Shown: positions 16,801 through 57,800 of the stretch, piece after piece
How the letters are laid out: each line of letters starts with the position of its first letter
Numbering within the stretch: the stretch's first letter is position 1
NCBI RefSeq assembly: GCF_036370855.1
Contig: NC_088113.1
Span: 21,782,501-21,846,500 of the forward strand
Length of the DNA: 64,000 nt
From: Dromaius novaehollandiae
Lineage: Eukaryota > Chordata > Aves > Casuariiformes > Dromaiidae
Direction: 5' to 3'
Notes under the pieces: generated by a model
The model's input: the letters and a program-made list of their open reading frames with translations, nothing else
Database searches by the model: none
Told to the model about the DNA's origin: nothing
Made by a program: the position numbers and the translations under genes

Positions 16801-18450
16801 TTGAAAGCCAAAGTCACAGATTTGCAATATTTAAAGTATTTTTGAACACATCAGAGTGCGATGGCTCATAAGTAAGAAGGCCGCTGCAAGAAGTCCGAAG
16901 AGGCAAGTCTGGCAATAAACCTCATTACAGATCCTTAATCCTGGTCCAGCTCCTGTTACAGTCTCTTTCCCCTGGCACGAAGGTGGCTGAACCAGGATGA
17001 TGCACCACCAAGAACTGCCGAGGCACGTAGATGGTGGTCTGTACGCTGAGCACGAGCTTCCCTTGGTGGTCTCAGCTACTGCAGTTTTGTGCATCACATA
17101 CCATGAACTTACACGTCAAAAAGACCAAGAAGCTCTCACCAGAAAAAGCTACCAAAATAATATAAATGCATAACTTAACATCAGCATTACAAAGAAGAAA
17201 TATCCTGCAGAGATAACTTGCAGAGGAATCCTACACTGCTCTCGTACGTCACACGCGCATCCCCGGCTCCCTCAGAAAAACGCGTTCCGTTTGGCCTCTA
17301 TGTGTTTTACCCAGTTTTGTCACAACTGATAAGCACGGCATGCCTAAAGCAAACAGCTAAGTCTAGACCACAGGCACCGAAACGCGCCGGGCGCCCCAGC
17401 AGCGCCAGCAGCCGTGCGAGCCGCGCTCGCGGCCTCCCTGCTCACGCCTGCGCTGGGGGGTGCGGCCGGCACCGCTGCTGGGGGGGGTGTGGGGGGGTGC
17501 GGCCGGCACCGCTGCTGGGGGGGGTGTGGGGGGGTGCGGCCGGCACCGCTGCTGGGGGGGGTGTGGGGGGGTGCGGCCGGCACCGCTGCTTGGGGGGGGG
17601 GGGGTGCGGCCGGCACCGCTGCTGGGGGGGGGGGTGCGGCCGGCACCGCTGCTGGGGGGGGTGTGGGGGGGTGCGGCCGGCACCGCTGCTGGGGGGGGTG
17701 TGGGGGGGTGCGGCCGGCACCGCTGCTGGGGGGGGTGTGGGGGGGTGCGGCCGGCACCGCTGCTTGGGGGGGGGGGGGTGCGGCCGGCACCGCTGCTGGG
17801 GGGGGGGGTGCGGCCGGCACCGCTGCTGGGGGGGGGGGGTGCGGCCGGCACCGCTGCTGGGGGGGGGGATGCGGCCGGCACCGCTGCTGGGGGGGGGGGG
17901 TGCGGCCGGCACCGCTGCTGGGGGGGGGGATGCGGCCGGCACCGCTGCTGGGGGGGGGGGATGCGGCCGGCACCCGGCCCCGGCCCGCGCCCCAGCGCAC
18001 GCGGCTCTGCCGGAGGCCCGAGGCCGCCCCGAGCGCGGCAGCCGCCGCCGAGCACGCCCAGCCCAGCCCAGCCCAGCCCAGCCCAGCGCGTCGCTCCCGC
18101 CCCCGCGGCCCTTCCCCGGCGCCGCCCGTACCTGTGGGCGCCGCCCGGCGCAGGTAGTCGGCCCAGGAGAGCTCGGCCCGCGGCCGCCCGGAGCAGCAGC
18201 GCGCCAGGGCGCGGGCCAGCGCCGAGAGCCCGAAGACGACCAGGAGGTGCAGCAGCGTCATGAAGAGCGGGAAGCGGAAGCTCTGCGGGAACCGAGAGCC
18301 GCCCGTCACCGCCGCGCCGCGCCCCGCCGCCCGCCCCCGCCGCCCGCGCACCTTCATGAGCCACTTGTTGTAGAAGGTGATGCCGATGGAGAAGCCGTAG
18401 TAGAGCAGCACCAGCGCCGCCGCCAGCGCCGCCCGCCCCAGCGCCGCCAT
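13806..18450 (-). CDS. SLC35C2: Solute carrier family 35 member C2 (GDP-fucose-transporter-like)
   Basis: A multi-pass Golgi/ER-Golgi protein of the drug/metabolite transporter fold, reported to promote Notch fucosylation and related to the GDP-fucose transporter. Exons, 5' to 3' on minus: 18352-18450, 18132-18282, 16461-16524, 16165-16237, 15809-15977, 15439-15522, 14920-15095, 14074-14203, 13806-13927. The sum is 1068 bp, 355 aa plus stop, close to the human 365. All junctions are GT-AG and in phase. Recognisable segments are [14 protein letters not shown] in TM1, [69 protein letters not shown] and [16 protein letters not shown]. The tail is hydrophilic and acidic (EEEEED). The start sits at the first ATG after the CpG-island promoter and matches the family N-terminus. 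Intron 2 carries a large G-rich minisatellite. ELMO2 lies just upstream on the same strand. Confidence 0.95.
17457..17975. repeat. G-rich minisatellite with 174-bp higher-order duplication
   Basis: Sixteen tandem copies of the core GCGGCCGGCACCGCTGCT, each followed by a long G tract. Core starts are at 17462, 17499, 17536, 17573, 17606, 17636, 17673, 17710, 17747, 17780, 17810, 17841, 17871, 17902, 17932 and 17963. Spacing runs 37,37,37,33,30 twice in a row and then alternates 31/30. So 17462-17635 and 17636-17809 form a 174-bp tandem duplication of five units. The array lies in SLC35C2 intron 2. Its frames stay open in several registers on both strands, which creates spurious long ORFs. The G tracts could form G-quadruplexes on the plus strand, the template-opposite strand of SLC35C2. 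Confidence 0.95.
18055..18090. repeat. Pentanucleotide GCCCA microsatellite
   Basis: Several tandem copies of CCCAG/GCCCA in the CpG island part of SLC35C2 intron 2, just inside the exon 2 donor side. Confidence 0.7.
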
Positions 18451-47700: not shown

Positions 47701-50700
47701 GAGAAACAGAAGCCAAATCTTTCACCTACCAAAACATGTAAGGAAAACCATCCGTGTACTCTCAGGTAAGAGATTTACTAGACAATCTTCTATTCAGCTT
47801 TCTGCCTGAATATGCTTCCCAGCAGCATGCCTTACCTCCTCTGTCATTGTGGCAGAAAAGAGCATTGTCTGACGGTGTTTAGAGCATAACCTGATTATTT
47901 CCTTCATCTGCTCCTCAAAGTATTCATCCAGCATCCTACACAACAGAAACCCAGCAAGGCAGCTTGAACTGTTTCTAGCCAAGATCCATTACTTAGGGCA
48001 ATAAACACTGCCTTATACCCTGGGGTTTTCCCCAGGAAGCAAGCAGGAAGTTACCACTTCATTTTTCATTACTGTTCTGCCCAGTTTACCTATCTGCTTC
48101 ATCCAAAATGAGCACTTCAATACTGCTCAGGTGGAAAGAGGGGCAGTTGTGAAGATGATCGATCAGCCGCCCAGGAGTGGCAATAAGAATGTCTGGCCCA
48201 GAGCGTAGAGCTGCTTCCTGAGTCTTCACATCTAGGCCACCTGAAAGAGAGTAAACAAGGACCACTGACTCCCTGAGCAGGATGTAATAGAGTACATAGA
48301 TCCAAATACTCTGAAGATTGGGAAACAATTCCAATTAATACCACATTCACAATTAGAAATGACTACCTTTTCTTTATCAGAAAAAAAACAGAATTGCACA
48401 GTATTATAAAATAAGAATTGAAACTACAGCACACCTACTTAAAGCATGCCTGCAATAACCATAGAGCCACCAGTTTTAAAGCACAGGATTCCAAGTGCTG
48501 TACAGCATTTACAGCGAGATGTATGGTTTAGGTAAGCAACTTAATACTCACCTACAGCAAGGCAAGTTGTGATGTTGCTGAACTGTGCCAGCTGTTTTGT
48601 AACAGAGTGCACCTGAATACCCAGTTCTCGAGTTGGCACTAGAACCAATACTCGTGTTACTGGAGCCTGACGAGGTTTATAAATCAGGCGCTCAAGTACA
48701 GGCAGGATGAAGGCAGCTGTTTTACCTACAGAAGAAGAAGAAGAATAAGAAGAATTACCAAGTTATTGTGAATAGTTAGTTCTCCGTTTCCTACCTCCTG
48801 CTCAATTCCTACCTGTCCCAGTAGCAGCACAGGCACAAATATCCTTCCCCAGAAGGCCCACCGGGATACAAGCTTTCTGAATTGGGGTTGGTTGCTTGAA
48901 GCCAAGGGCTGTGATTGCCTACACAGGAGATAGAGCAGTAAAACTCTTTATATAAAAAAAAAAAAAACCCAAGCCTCGCTCAAAATAGCATTGACATATA
49001 TTGCAGATTAAAGAACAGTTTTTATGAGTTTGAAATAATAGCTCCTAAAAGGCTAACTATCATACCACCCTCTACCTCACATTTCCTGTTCTGGGAGGCT
49101 GCAAAGAGAGGAAGAATGTGACAGTTCTGATTAGTGGATGGGAAACTCTACATTTTCTACAATAACTTACGTACTAAGTAAAACAGCTAAATACCTTTAA
49201 CAAAGGTCGTGAAAGATTCATGTCCTGGAATGACAAGCTATCATCATATTGAGAGGCATCTTCAAAAAAGCTCTCTGCTTCCTAGAAACAGCAACAACAA
49301 AAAAAGCTGGAACAACATAGGCAACAACACAACACACGATCAAAGCTTTCTGGGCTCCTCTGTGACCTACAGTTTGTTAACGAAAGTCAACTTAAGATGA
49401 AATTATGGAGAATGATCTAGTATCATTCTATCCAACACTTACTACTTCTCTGTTTTTCCGTCTCTTCCGTTCCTTCACTTTGAGAGTATCTGCAGAAAAA
49501 GAGAAAAGCGATTGGAATTTAATAAGCACAGCTAAAGCCTTACAAGATATGGTGCCTGCTCTCTTCTTGTACTTTTTTGCTTTTGATGGCTCATTGATGG
49601 AGAGGCCTCAGAAACTAATATCAGACAAGCAATAGAGTAAAATGCCAAGCAAACATCTACCCTTGGGGCCAATTAAATAAAGTACTACAGCTACAATTCA
49701 GAATAAGCTTGATCAAGATCAGAAGTAGCATCACAGAGGTCTGTGGACAAGACAACACAAATTAAGAGATTCTTACTCGCTCCCACCAAGGTCTCACTGG
49801 AGACTTCTCTCCAATAAGCTAATAGTCTGTCAGATCCTTGCTCCTGACCACCTCTCTGTGTACTGCTAATACCTGCTTTAGCAAAGATACTTTCATCATC
49901 TAATGAGTTCTGGGACTCCACATCCTCTTCTTCCTCCCCATTGAAGTCTTCACACTCTCTCTCTTTGGTTTGACTATCCTCAGTCTCTGCATCTTCTTCT
50001 TCCACTTTTGCTTGTTTAGCTTCTTTTTCCTAGGAAGAGATATGAAATGGATGTCTTAAAAAGAATAAAAAAGAAATTTCAACCCTTTATATTATTTTAT
50101 TTTATTTTTTAATTACAAGCCCATTCACAAATGCATAGGTTTGTAAAACCTAAAGCATAAACAATTCTACATTTTCAGCAGCTCAGCAACCCATCAGGTA
50201 TGTCTGCAAACCAAACCAAGGTGATGAGCTGTGCCTTAGGCACTTGGGACTCAGGATACTTTCAGAGCCTGTGCCTCTGAATGGAGAAACTATGGAAAGC
50301 CAAACCCATACCGCTCTTTCAGTAATGGGAAGCACTAGGAGAATGTCCCTGACCTGGATCTTCCTTTTTTGTCTCACTTTCTCAATCTTCTCGTCCAGCG
50401 TCGTGGCTGTTCTCTAAACAGGAAATCAGGAGAGAGGAGCCGTTAGGGAAGCCCAAAAGAATGCAGGGCACAGCAGCCCCGCTCCCAGCCTCCGCTCCCG
50501 GCCCCCGGGCCTCACCTTGCCACGGAGCTGCCGCAACGCCGCCGCCCAGGCACCCTCTCCGCCCGCCTCCGCCTCACCGAAGACGAATGCGGTGCTGAAG
50601 TCCCCGCGGGGGAGACCCCGCAGCCCAGCACGGCTCGGCTCCTGCAGCGACACCCAGTGAGCAGCGACCGCGGGCCGGGCAGGCCGCGCTGAACCGAACA

Positions 50701-51052: not shown

Positions 51053-51278
51053 CGGTGGCGGCGGCGCTCGGCCCGCGGGGTCGTGACGGCAGGGGGGGCC
51101 GCCGCGCCGCGCCGCGCCGCGCCGCCGGGGCACCGGCAGAGCAGGGGGACGGACGGAAGAGAGACCGGTATCGGGGGTGTTGCCTGCGCTGCCGGCTGGG
51201 GCGGGGGCGGGGGGGCCGCGGGCCGGGGCGGGGGCGCTAGCGCTGGCGCTGGCTCTGGCCGCCGCCGCGGGGGGGGCG

Positions 51279-51613
51279 CCCCGGGGAGCGCGAGGCACCG
51301 ATCGCCCGGCGGGGGCGGGGCGGGGCGGGGCGGGGGGGCGCCCCGGGGAGCGCGGGGCACCGATCGCCTGGCGAGGGCGGGCAGGGCGGGGGGGGGTGCC
51401 CCGGGGAGCGCGGCGCACCGTTCGCCCGGCGGGGGCGGGCAGGGCGGGGGGGGCGCCCCGGGGAGCGCGGGGCACCGATCGCCCGGCGGGGGCGGGCAGG
51501 GCGGGGGGGGGTGCCCCGGGGAGCGCGGCGCACCGTTCGCCCGGCGGGGGCGGGCGGGACGGGGCGGGGGCGCCCGGGGAGCGCGGGGCACCGTTCGCCT
51601 GCCTTGGGCGGGG
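51279..51613. repeat. 58-bp G-rich minisatellite, six copies
   Basis: Units begin CCCCGGGGAGCGCG at 51279, 51341, 51399, 51456, 51514 and about 51572. Each continues GCACCG(A/T)TCGCC and ends in a GGGCGGG/poly-G tract. Copies 2 and 4 carry GGGGCACCGATC, while 3 and 5 carry GCGCACCGTTC and are preceded by GTGCCCC rather than GCGCCCC. So the array alternates A-B-A-B, giving a higher-order period of about 115 bp. It produces long open frames on both strands that are not genes. Confidence 0.92.
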
Positions 51614-51875: not shown

Positions 51876-54800
51876 ATGGACGGTGCCAGGCAGGAGCCTC
51901 GTTCCTGGCCGCTCCGAGCTGGTGAAAGAGGTGAGAGCTGCGTGGTTAATGCAGGGCAGTGGGTCACGAAGAGCTGAGGAATGACGCGCTACGGCGTGAC
52001 CCGTTCTTTCCTCGCCTGTGTACGTGCTGTATAACTTCCTCTGAAGTATAAATTTTTGCATTTCCTTATTTGCTTCCCAGATTCTGGTTGGGGCCCTTGA
52101 AGTGATGATGTGGTGCAACAATTTCTGTGCTAATTTATTCTGCTAGTGTTCACTGCTTCTCGGAGTATTCAGTTGAGGCCTTGATAAAGACTATACAGCA
52201 TATGCTTTCTGATAATGTGAGGGGTCAGGCTTTGTCCAGAAGGTCTGCGTTTTACCCGTGCTATATAAAGAAAGTTAGAGCTAGCTGCTGCTACTTTTTT
52301 CATTATTTAAATGACAGTTAATTCTGGGGGAAATCTTGTCCAGTGTAGAAAAATTCTTCTCTGGTCTTTCTTAGTTCTGTTCTCTGGCCTGTGGAAAAGG
52401 TGTTATTTTCTTAGTGTCTTCAAGACTTAACAGCATAAGTGAACTCTAGGCATGGCATTCTCTCTTTCTCTCTCTCTCTCTTTTTTTTTTAAAGTGGTCA
52501 GAAAAAAGGGTACCAAGGAAACACCAACATAAAGGCCTGGTTGTAAAATGCTATTTTTCTTTTAACATGACACAAGATGTCCAAAATATGCTGACTACCA
52601 GGCCAGAACACTCAGCTCTTATATCGGGAGGCAAGTTAATATGGTTGACTGTAACTGAGGAGTATCTTCTTATCTTTTTCTTTGTAGGGCATGCTGATCA
52701 TCGCTTTACACAAACAGGCAGGAACAGAGTTAATAATGAGTCAGGCCAGGCTCACAAGAGGGTAGCTCAGGCTGGGGAAAACCCCCAGGCTGGTAATTAC
52801 CCTCTTCTACCTGGGCAAAGAGAGGAGAGCTTTGGTGGTACTGGACGGTTCTTCAATCATGGAAGAAGAAACCAAGGTGGACAGGCCAACACTGGATCCA
52901 CAGGACACTGGAATGAACAGGAGAATGAGGGAAGGGGAAGGAGGTATCAAGGTGGACCAGCACATGACAGAGCCAGAGGGCCCTGGAATGAGCAAGAAAA
53001 TGAAGGTAGGGTGAAGAGGTATCAAGGTGGACAAGCACATGAAAGAACCAGAGGGCCCCGGAATGAGCAAGAAAATGAAGGTAGGGTGAAGAGATATCAG
53101 GGTGGACAAGCACATGAGAGAGCCAGAAGACCCTGGAATGAGCAAGAAAATGAAGGTAGGGGAAGGAGTTATCAGGGTGGACAAGCACATGAGAGAGCCA
53201 GAGAACCCCGGAATGAGCCAAAAAATGAGGAGAGGGGAAGGAATCATCAGAGTGGACAAGCCCACGATGGAGCTAGAGGGCTGAGGAATGGGCAGGAAAA
53301 CGAAGGTAGAGGAAGGAGGATGCAACCTGGGGAGAATCCTCATTTCTACCAGAACCCTACCCCAGGTGGCGTCCAGCTTAGTGAGCAGCCTCAGCAAACC
53401 AAAAGGATTGGCTACAAATTCCTAGAAAGTCTCCTCCAGAAAGACCCTTCCGAAGTTGTCATCACACTTGCTTCCAGTTTGGGTCTGAAGGAACTTCTTT
53501 CCCAAACATCTGTGAAACCCACTTTCCTTCAGCTCATCTGTCAAGTGCTTCGAAAAGCATGCAGTTCCCGAATGGATCGGCAGAGTGTCCAGCAGCTTCT
53601 TGGAGTGGTGAAGGAGTCCAACTTTCTCAAGATCTGTCTGCCACAGTATGTGTCTGACATGATAACTGAGGCAGTCCCTGCTGTACGACATCAGTACCCT
53701 GAGCATATTGGCAACATCATCTCGCTTCTTCAGGACCTGATCAGTATTTTCCCAGCCAGCTCTGTACAGAAAATCTCCATTCTCTTGACAGTCTTGCCAG
53801 CATCCATAAATGCCCTGCGAGCTTCTGGTGTGGACATCACAGAAGAAACAGAGAAGAATCTAAATAAGGTCCAGATGCTCGTGCAGCACCTGCAGGAGAA
53901 GAGACGTGAAGGCACACTGAGGGCTGACAACTATACCCTTATGCAACCTCGAGCTGATGGTCAGGAAGAAACTTATCGTACAATGACCATTTATCCAACA
54001 TATAATGAGGTACATCATGATGAGAAACCCTTTCTACGCCCCAATATTGTTTCTGGAAGATATGAGAGCACCAGCATTTATCTTGACACTCATTTCCGGC
54101 TTCTGAGAGAAGACTTTGTAAGGCCTTTAAGGGAAGGTATCCTGGAGCTTTTGCAGAGCTTTGAGGACAAAGGTTTGAGGAAGAAAAAATTTGATGACAT
54201 CAGGATCTACTTTGACACACGTATTATTACCCCCCTCTGCTCCTCATCTGGTATTGTTTACAAGGTCCAGTTTGACACAAAGCCATTGAAGTTTGTACGA
54301 TGGCAGAATTCCAAACGGTTGCTGTATGGATCCCTGGTCTGCATGTCTAAAGATCACTTTGAAACATGTCTTTTTGCTACTGTCTCAAATCGTGATAGTG
54401 CAGATCTGGCCCAGGGGATTGTGCAGCTATGTTTTAATGCACAGAGCCAGGCACTGCTGGCAGAGGTTCAGCCCTCAGACTCCTTCCTTATGGTAGAGAC
54501 AACTGCCTACTTTGAGGCCTATCGGCATGTGTTAGAAGGGTTACAGGAAATCCGTGAAGAAGATATTCCATTCCAGAAGTACATTGTGGAATGCGATGCA
54601 CATGTGAAGGAGCCAACATACCTGTCAATGGGCACTACTTACAACTTTGCACCCTTGATGGAAGACCCTCCAACAGATGAAGAGATGCACCCTGATGGCT
54701 TGAGAAGGCAGAGTGTCAATGTTCTAGATCCTAACCAGTGGCCTTCAATGGAAGCTTTGAGATTAGATGAGTCTCAGATGCAGGCACTGAGTCTTGCACT

Positions 54801-57800
54801 CACCAAGGAGCTGGCTATTATCCAAGGACCTCCTGGGACTGGTGAGAAACATTTGCTTTAGATCTCTGTCACTTAAGAAATTCTACTTGACTCCCCCAGT
54901 TAGAAAGACTGACGCTGAGAAAATCAGCTGCAGTGTCTCCAAAGCTTCCACCCATGCCTAGTGGATGCCTGAGTAGCCCAATTAGTGAGAGCTGTGGGAA
55001 AGAAGGTTAAAATATCCTCAAATACCCATACATACCTCTAAGTCAGATATGATCTTACATATCACTGACCTAGTTGCCAGTAGACCCCGGGCCAGGTTTG
55101 GGGGTGAAAAGATTTTCAACCATCTCTGATACTATGGTGTCTCTAGCTGAGCAACTGCTCTATTAGTCTTTGTAGCATGTTAGAACATTGGGAGCATTCA
55201 GCTCTGGTCCTCTAGATGTACAAAGCATTGCAGTGGTGACTGCAGGCATATGTAAACTCTCTCACAATTGTTGTGGGGAAGGTTGATGAATTTTAACTAT
55301 TATAAATGGTACCTGAACTCGGCAAGCATCCACTGCTTTTATTCTCCTAGTATCTGAATGTTTTATGTACAGCTGACTCTCATACATGGAGCCAGTGTCT
55401 GACCCCAGTTTATTAACCAAAAGGCAGCATTCTTGCAGAAAAGACTTGCTCAGTTACAGCCCAGAAAGGATAGCAGCAGTGACATGCTACTTTGTTTATA
55501 TATTGTAACCTAGCTACCTCTAGGGTAGGGTCTTGTTTGGCACAGGCGAGGTTTGCAGCTCAGAGGGAAGCCTTGTATCTTGTTTTGATTCCTGTGTTTC
55601 AGGGCATCCTGTAGAGAGTGGATTACCCTTTTCTGATTCTGAGCTTGTTTTGCAGGGAAGACCTATGTGGGTTTGAAGATTGTTCAGGCTCTCTTGACTA
55701 ATGAGCATGTGTGGCAAAGCACTGTCCAGAAATCTCCCATCCTTGTAGTGTGTTACACTAACCATGCACTGGATCAGTTCTTAGAAGGTAAGAGTGCCTC
55801 ATAAATATGCGGGGGGAGGAGAGAGAAATTATAGTATTTGCTCTTTGCTCTAACTGTCCCACCTCTGGGCATGACAACATGCCCTTATGGCTTTTGCTAC
55901 TGACTCCAGCCCCACTGATACACAATAAGAAAGCTTCTGTCAGATCAATCCAGTGTAGAGCTCATAGTCAAATGCTGTTCTCCCTACCCCTTGTCCTGCT
56001 GCAGAAAACAGAGCTTGGCTCTTCAGCACTAATATTTCTGTTTGATTCCCAGGAATATACACATTCCAAAAAAGCGGGATGGTGCGTGTTGGGGGAAGAA
56101 GCAGCAGCGAGGTCCTGAAACAATTCACCTTGAGGGAGCTGAGGAAGAAGTGTGAATTCCGACGCAACTTGCCAATGCATCTTCGCAGGGCCTACGTGAA
56201 TGTACGTGCAGTTTGCCAGAGACCACGGGGAACTGGGTTGTCTCTGCATTGGAGAAGCTAACTAAACTTCCTCTTCAAGACATGCTCTTTTACCTTGTCT
56301 TACACTGAAGTCAGCCTCTTAATCCTGTCCTTGTTCACTTTGATCAGTTTCTTGTCCTGCTGTTTCTGATCTTTGTTCATCTGAGTATGATGATGCCTGT
56401 CTTCTCTTTGTCATGAGTAGATAACCAGTCAGATGAAACAGGCTGAGCAGGAGCTCCATGAAGGAGCAAAGCACTTAGAGTGCACTACATACGGAGTGCT
56501 GCATGAGCGCCACTTGGAAGCATGCATTGCCCCCCAGCACTGGGACAGTCTGATGAACCATCTGGTAAGAGAGGTCCCTTTCTTAGGAGTCAAGCAGTCT
56601 CTGTGTCTCTTTACTGTATTCCTATGCCATTTGCAGAAAGGAGACTGAGGTTCCCAAGCACACTTTCTTTAGCCTCACTCAACTACTAGGAAAGAGAGAG
56701 TGAGTGGCAAGCCATGCCATTTGACTGTAGTCTCTAAAAAGGGTTTTTTTGGTGGGGACGGAGGGTTGTTTCTTTTGTTTTTTGGCTAGAGCTTTAAATT
56801 TTGCTTCTTTAAACTGCACTGACTTCAAATGATCTTTATCAGTGTAAAAATACAAGAGACCAAAAGAAAGCCCCTTAAACTGAAGGGAAAGAGGGACACT
56901 GATCTGAAGTGTCTGAAGATCTGAGCCTGCCCAGGCTTTCTAGCTCTGGATGTCACGCAGGGCACTTGTCCTAATTCTGCACTGCTGCAGGTTGTTGCTT
57001 TGACATTATTCTAAGACTCTGAACTGCGATAGATCTGGCCAATTTAACTTTCTTTATACTAGGATGAGGAGGAGTTTTACTACAGTGGTTCACAACACTC
57101 AATGATTCTGGAGTGGCTGGGCCTTGGTGTAACTGTCTTTACCCAAAGTGCTACAGAGAACCTAGGGGCTGAGAATCCAGGTAAGAAACTCATCCTCTGT
57201 AGGTGTCTGCCCAAGCAATGCATGCATGCCAAAGAAAAGACACTGCTACTTAACAAACACTGAAAGATGCATGATACTGTAAGGTAGTGGAAAGAAGATT
57301 AACCTTAATTTCCACACGGCGATCTGACTGCTGCATTGTGATTCTGCCAGAGTGGCTGTGGCTGCCTGCATGTAACTAGTGACCTTCACAGGTGGTCAGC
57401 AGGAAAGAGAAGAGGAGCAGGAAGTTGAAGCGGGAGAGGAACTGTTGGAAATCCCAGAGGAGGCTGACCTGATTCAAGCTGACAGAGTGATTGAGGATGA
57501 GGAGGCAGCAAAGCCTCGAAGGAGGAAGGAGGAAGAGCACAGGGCTGTTCATGAACTGGCCAGTGTGCTGCTGGCTTTGAAGCTGGAGAACCAGGAAGAA
57601 GGAACAGCCCAACCACAGCAGAAGGCTATGCAGTGGGAGGTAACTGCATGCACTAGCATACCCTGGCTCTGCTTGAGTTTATAAGGAGTAACATGGGAAT
57701 GCTAATACAGAAGAAACTTTGTGCTATAACTGCTTGTTTGGGGGGTTGGTTCTGCAGATAACTGCAGCTCAGAGGAAGAAAATGAAACAGAAGATGAGGG

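Follow-up and report, generated by a model that had tools for sequence, protein, structure and literature searches.

A six-unit in-frame repeat array in the N-terminal arm of emu ZNFX1 and its single counterpart in human

Disordered helicase arms, protein repeats and ZNFX1

The arm of DDX4 is an example of the charge-block or RGG arms associated with condensates, and the locus described here, in the emu (Dromaius novaehollandiae), resembles it in that an RNA helicase carries a disordered arm at its N-terminus in which arginine and glycine are abundant and aromatic residues occur. The locus also resembles the coding minisatellites and protein tandem repeats with unit gain or loss treated in two surveys (PMC3995336, PMC5120217): its units are in frame, dN/dS between them is below 1 as a whole but approaches 1 in the youngest pairs, and unit number may differ between species, with one unit in the printed human arm and six in emu. 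Relaxed purifying selection between units is described as the general pattern for protein repeats in the same portion of Persi et al. 2016 (PMC5120217), with PRDM9 (2.7) as a positively selected contrast. According to the excerpt of Schaper et al. 2014 (PMC3995336) used here, most human protein repeats hold their unit configuration within mammals, and 5% (or 8%) are completely (or strongly) separated. The anatomy of the repeat is ordinary, and an expansion of this sort, though uncommon, is familiar in type.

As summarized in the consulted part of a review (PMC13270118), ZNFX1 has recently been described as a ubiquitin ligase that RNA activates and that in turn clusters RNA, and it forms RNA-activated higher-order assemblies, with two groups at odds over whether RNA itself gets ubiquitinated. 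For grouper ZNFX1, the part of the study drawn on here (PMC12585102) reports an N-terminus predicted to be disordered, constructs with the N-terminal domain that retain antiviral activity, and a contribution of this domain to TBK1 binding. The arm could matter to function, but these literature results concern ZNFX1 and not the repeat. A 2020 review (PMC7157566), in the section cited here, left the function of ZNFX1 in birds to future study, and among the titles and abstract openings of the open-licence ZNFX1 papers listed as matches, we noticed nothing on this repeat.

The array, its gene and the human counterpart

The window, i.e., the whole 64-kb stretch of emu DNA that was analyzed, carries a gene that had been named, from its sequence, as that of the antiviral RNA-sensing protein ZNFX1, and this name was confirmed by its match to human ZNFX1 (PDB 9q9z_A). 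Coding exon 2 (52688..54841, + strand, 2154 nt) scored 882.9 bits against this chain, with 871 bits for the alignment over query residues 199–718, from inside the sixth repeat unit onward, and a late exon scored 496.7 bits; 9q9z and 9eve were the only ZNFX1 chains among the PDB matches. Exon 2 also contains the Pfam family PF25396 (ZNFX1, E 4.8e-38), which places the protein among the ZNFX1 proteins, while later exons matched AAA_11 and AAA_12 above cut-off and make up, with the Walker A motif, an SF1 helicase core. There was no Pfam match in the N-terminal arm, so no zinc finger or other known fold was found there. As a candidate for the NFX1-type zinc fingers and the RZ finger, an ORF from 62048 that runs off the window is Cys/His-rich by eye, with no Pfam zinc-finger match at E 0.01.

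In our gene model, for which splice sites were scored by site frequencies, a putative coding exon 1 (51876..51930, + strand; MDGARQEPRSWPLRAGER) begins with an ATG and is followed by a donor, GAG/GTGAGA, at 51931 (score 9.9), whose phase fits the exon 2 acceptor at 52688 (score 12.3). Exon 2 would encode the disordered arm with the array and then the conserved protein up to Walker A, ending at a donor at 54842 (score 8.9). Its junction with coding exon 3, which starts at 55656..55658 (+ strand) in the ORF KTYVGLKIVQ, rebuilds the Walker A motif GPPGTGK (GPPGTG-KT, joined as GPPGTG-KTYVG). As far as sequence can tell, the placement of the repeat in the second coding exon thus holds as a gene model, with donor and acceptor sites as expected and a junction that restores the motif. 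Since the array and the start of the conserved protein lie in one exon, skipping of the whole exon would lose both.

The array itself (52873..53322, + strand) comprises six units of 75 nt, i.e., 150 residues, and was recovered by TRF, direct repeats, an ungapped register, and shuffles. TRF placed an array with a period of 75 at 52908-53319 and gave it 5.5 copies, with 84% matches, 1% indels, and a score of 512. Direct repeats were spaced 75, 75, 75, and 75, and identity at lag 75 reached 0.81 vs a maximum of 0.395 when the 450-base array was shuffled 5000 times. In the ungapped register, the unit starts given in the preliminary description (52873, 52948, 53023, 53098, 53173, and 53248) proved correct to the base. 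Each of the six units spans 25 codons in frame, as it had claimed, and the units are stop-free, in fixed register, and head to tail. The range that it gave, 52860..53322, fits at its end and in its unit starts but begins 13 bases ahead of the first unit. With same-length, in-frame, head-to-tail units beyond chance, the locus is a coding minisatellite or protein tandem repeat.

We refer to the units, all on the + strand, as U1 (52873..52947; QGGQANTGSTGHWNEQENEGRGRRY), U2 (52948..53022; QGGPAHDRARGPWNEQENEGRVKRY), U3 (53023..53097; QGGQAHERTRGPRNEQENEGRVKRY), U4 (53098..53172; QGGQAHERARRPWNEQENEGRGRSY), U5 (53173..53247; QGGQAHERAREPRNEPKNEERGRNH), and U6 (53248..53322; QSGQAHDGARGLRNGQENEGRGRRM). 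Across the 15 unit pairs, identity ranged from 67 to 93% in nucleotides and from 48 to 84% in amino acids, and 7 of the 25 amino acid columns are invariant in all six units. U2–U5 are mutually 77–93% identical in DNA, whereas U1 and U6, the edge units, are 67–75% identical to every other unit; U2 and U3 alone reach 93%, and the remaining 14 of 15 pairs differ by 12–33% in DNA. Mis-assembly of tandem repeats can occur, and a single assembly was seen. Nevertheless, a wrong unit number through an assembly artefact is very improbable: the 1.47-Gb assembly has only 271 contigs and a single locus that matches, and all six units differ mutually by at least 7%, so that long reads would place them. Globin exons lie on contigs C14 and C1, among others, and were taken as alpha-type on C14 and as beta-type near 218.6 Mb on C1; one exon of each type was compared with PDB chains. 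The best single alpha chain was 3wtg_A (alpha-A), from emu haemoglobin, at 142 bits, ranking below six entries of which at least five match twice at 97–100 bits per stretch. Together with a C1/C14 layout that is avian, this makes a bird genome likely.

In this assembly, a same-genome repeat search, in which 19 of 19 first-look candidates were scored, matched the window alone, with no second ZNFX1 locus and no other protein with the repeat. Pattern matches in viral and prokaryotic contigs (4 and 24, respectively) included no relative that would represent a host-derived ZNFX1. Extra degenerate units in the flanks of the emu array were ruled out, as 3067 and 3887 of 5000 shuffles score as well, and the SGQAHKR immediately upstream of the array is a weak match to unit positions 2–8 (3.8 bits). 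One minus-strand frame across the array is also open, as a 204-aa ORF (52807-53421) that is stop-free within the array, probably as a mechanical consequence of a period divisible by three.

A short degenerate counterpart in human ZNFX1 had been mentioned in the preliminary description, and one such unit, QEGHASDEARDQRHDQENDTRWRNG, is indeed found at the same place in the printed human arm (119 residues of PDB 9q9z). The six-unit profile puts this unit, which is also 25 residues long, at residues 57–81 of the 119 printed, with a score reached by 1 of 20,000 shuffled versions of the arm. The printed residues after and before it yielded no further unit better than chance, as 12,702 and 13,416 of 20,000 shuffles, respectively, reach the best score. 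HMMER alone gave a short and weak match on human (6.6 bits for the best stretch, 2.2 bits for the whole arm), and the emu arm scored 22 bits against 9q9z (E 0.001). The human arm aligns across one unit, then again from inside U6 into the conserved protein. Five of the seven invariant columns are retained in the human unit (Q1, G3, A5, N18, and R21), with N14 replaced by H and E19 by D. The gene is the same in human (9q9z_A, 9eve_A) and emu, and so is the unit length of 25, but human has one unit vs six in emu, and glycine numbers 7 among the 113 residues analyzed for the human arm vs 39 of 236 in the emu arm. The array is very probably an expansion relative to human, the one outside species compared.

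Age of the duplications and selection on the units

Under a codon model, mean dS was 0.61 (0.39–1.08) for pairs involving U1 or U6 and 0.28 (0.15–0.48) among U2–U5, and the edge mean exceeded the inner mean in 200 of 200 bootstraps, for which the single best topology was kept. The U2–U3 pair had a dS of 0.11 (0.04–0.21), and the upper bound for the edge units was about 1.1–1.2; with 25 codons per unit, intervals on both dS and omega are wide. The 105 unrooted topologies were screened roughly at fixed kappa and omega, and the top two were fitted fully: the best joins U1 with U6, and the second, 1.5 log units lower after the full fit, does not. Counting-method dS values of 0.9–2.6 for the edge pairs were dropped as an age estimate; the codon model gives 0.51–0.92, and these lower values were used.

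The outer units are the oldest and the inner ones the youngest. Rough ages come to ~150 My (100–270) for the edge, ~70 My (40–120) for the inner units, and ~27 My (10–52) for U2–U3, figures that are rough because synonymous sites may depart from the genome-average rate. Crown birds are ~90–100 My old. Taken together, this suggests that the array arose after the mammal split, with first duplications that may predate crown birds and inner duplications that followed and may be younger. The claim of lineage specificity therefore probably holds with respect to mammals, but the lineage concerned may be wider than this species or its order. A very recent or hypervariable array is countered by the old edge units and by the DNA divergence of 14 of the 15 pairs.

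Alternatively, several units could already have been present in the amniote ancestor, and human would have lost all but one. The great age of the edge units, at the upper bound of their dS, would accommodate an ancestral array, as would the uneven identity of individual units to the human one, which is highest for U6 (12 of 25 by unit comparison and profile) and only 8 for U1. Across all six pairs, however, emu–human unit identity is 32–48% in amino acids (8–12 of 25), at most equal to the lowest value among emu units, and the printed human arm holds a single unit. The likeness of the emu units to one another, which is equal to or greater than their likeness to the human unit, is the pattern expected if duplication postdates the mammal split, and we consider an ancestral array unlikely.

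Next to age, the comparison of synonymous and non-synonymous differences between units, which the preliminary description had proposed, pointed to purifying selection overall but not in the youngest pairs. Pairwise differences numbered 62, 70, and 131 at the first, second, and third codon positions, the excess at the third having a permutation p of 0.002. Relative to the consensus, 26.5 changes were synonymous and 35.5 nonsynonymous, with an expected synonymous fraction of 0.21–0.30 (kappa 1–6). Codon-model omega was 0.47 on the best topology (2dlnL 5.18 vs omega 1) and 0.42 on the second (2dlnL 7.45), and equal codon frequencies gave 0.45 (2dlnL 5.83). Bootstrap values, with one topology kept, ranged from 0.22 to 0.80 and were below 1 in 199 of 200 replicates. 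By counting, the nine pairs with U1 or U6 had omega values of 0.08–0.32, and the youngest adjacent pairs had values of 1.06 (U2–U3) and 1.44 (U4–U5), which weakens the argument that new copies are constrained; the most recent ones may evolve freely. Overall, the units are likely translated and constrained, with relaxed purifying selection on their amino acids.

In the reading that we favor with moderate confidence, a disordered ancestral unit expanded in frame as a minisatellite, which lengthens a flexible arm and adds weak contacts. The starting point would be a 25-residue segment of the disordered arm, rich in Arg, Gly, Gln, Asn, and Glu, which is single in human and which unequal exchange or slippage may have duplicated in frame to six copies on the emu lineage. 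The most likely effect would be to extend the flexible polyampholyte, close to neutral in charge, that precedes the conserved protein, and repeated weak contact sites, in the form of the R/G-rich stretches and aromatic residues described below, could modulate the packing of ZNFX1 into RNA-driven assemblies.

The nearest rival is a tolerated minisatellite, i.e., a disordered spacer that accepts in-frame duplications without a functional effect of copy number, and in which the constraint is no more than selection against aggregation, stops, and frameshifts. This would agree with the two youngest adjacent pairs at omega 1 or more, with a composition that gives no pointer to a specific binding function, and with relaxed purifying selection between units being common in protein repeats, as stated in the part of PMC5120217 considered here. 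It is less readily reconciled with the columns that are invariant across the six units and largely kept in the human unit, with the low counting omega in the nine pairs involving U1 or U6, and with a codon model that rejects omega 1 (2dlnL 5.2–7.4). A tolerated spacer is a serious contender to which we give somewhat less than even credence, and the lengthened arm with more weak contact sites is ranked first.

Arm composition, splice sites and neighboring features

The array and the human arm are both predicted to be disordered from charge and hydropathy (normalised hydropathy of 0.247 for the array vs a boundary of 0.430; 0.256 vs 0.439 for the human arm), and each emu unit has an R/G-rich stretch, with tyrosine, with or without tryptophan, in four of the six. 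The preliminary description had also linked arms of this type to RNA binding and the formation of condensates, a claim that the composition leaves unsupported, although the RNA-driven assemblies of ZNFX1 and the antiviral activity kept by the grouper N-terminal construct are compatible with it. The array contains 0 RGG, 7 RG, and 9 GR, and thus no RGG box of the RNA-binding kind, and its 27 R and 3 K against 21 E and 2 D give a net charge of +7 over 150 residues. Charge segregation is not raised, with a delta of 0.071 vs 0.061 (20% of 2000 shuffles as high) and an SCD of 0.51 vs a shuffle mean of −0.09 (sd 0.68), so that charge blocks of the DDX4 type are absent. In contrast to DDX4-type and RGG arms, the emu array is devoid of RGG, near-neutral, and within shuffles in its segregation, features that make a strong role of the arm in RNA binding or phase separation less likely.

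An effect of the repeat on assembly or RNA contact is a tentative suggestion only, somewhat on the unlikely side, and a dosage role of copy number is speculation. We hold it to be improbable that unit number is a standing selected variable in birds, with a multivalent arm setting how RNA is clustered into ubiquitin-coated particles; if this were true, lineages with different antiviral repertoires would tune clustering by gain or loss of 25-residue units. In any case, the natural contrast between one unit and six offers a ready comparison for the role of the disordered arm.

Constraint could also act on the nucleic acid, through a purine-rich exonic splicing enhancer or through donor-like sites that give a short isoform. 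The purine fraction is 0.744 in the array, compared with 0.584 and 0.504 for the 5′ and the conserved portions of exon 2, respectively, and three evenly spaced donor-like AAG/GTAGGG sites, which the repeat itself creates and which were detected by score and phase (53006, 53081, and 53156, one each in U2, U3, and U4; 53006..53158, + strand), score 8.7 vs 8.9 for the real exon 2 donor and are all in phase 1, as is that donor. Splicing from 53006, 53081, or 53156 to exon 3 could thus yield an in-frame short isoform without much of exon 2. However, codon positions 1 and 2 change about half as often as position 3, which constraint on the nucleic acid does not predict, and of the candidate acceptors downstream in the exon, the two best (53353 and 53734) shift the frame, whereas 54497 and 53792 keep it but are weaker and remove conserved protein. 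We regard constraint at the nucleotide level as quite improbable. Removal of the array by within-exon splicing was likewise judged unlikely, given these frame shifts, weaker scores, and losses of conserved protein.

Human ZNFX1 has an antisense host gene, ZFAS1, that carries snoRNAs. An Rfam scan of the window (1–64000) gave 0 matches at the gathering score, and no ZFAS1 snoRNA was therefore detected there. Between the ZNFX1 start at 51876 and the apparent 5′ terminus of a minus-strand, DDX27-like gene sits a GC-rich minisatellite of 58 bp × 5.7 copies (51269-51599), apparently within a promoter region that the two genes share head to head. The name DDX27 is tentative; the helicase piece of this neighbor (48085-48333) matches DEAD-box chains in PDB, with DDX47 as the best, and its start piece matches nothing. 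DDX27 and ZNFX1 lie tail to tail in human, so that the gene order may be rearranged. Further away, a long GC-rich minisatellite with periods of 30 to 174 bp (17455-17974) lies beside or inside another minus-strand gene, presumably SLC35C2 from the reading of its ORFs.
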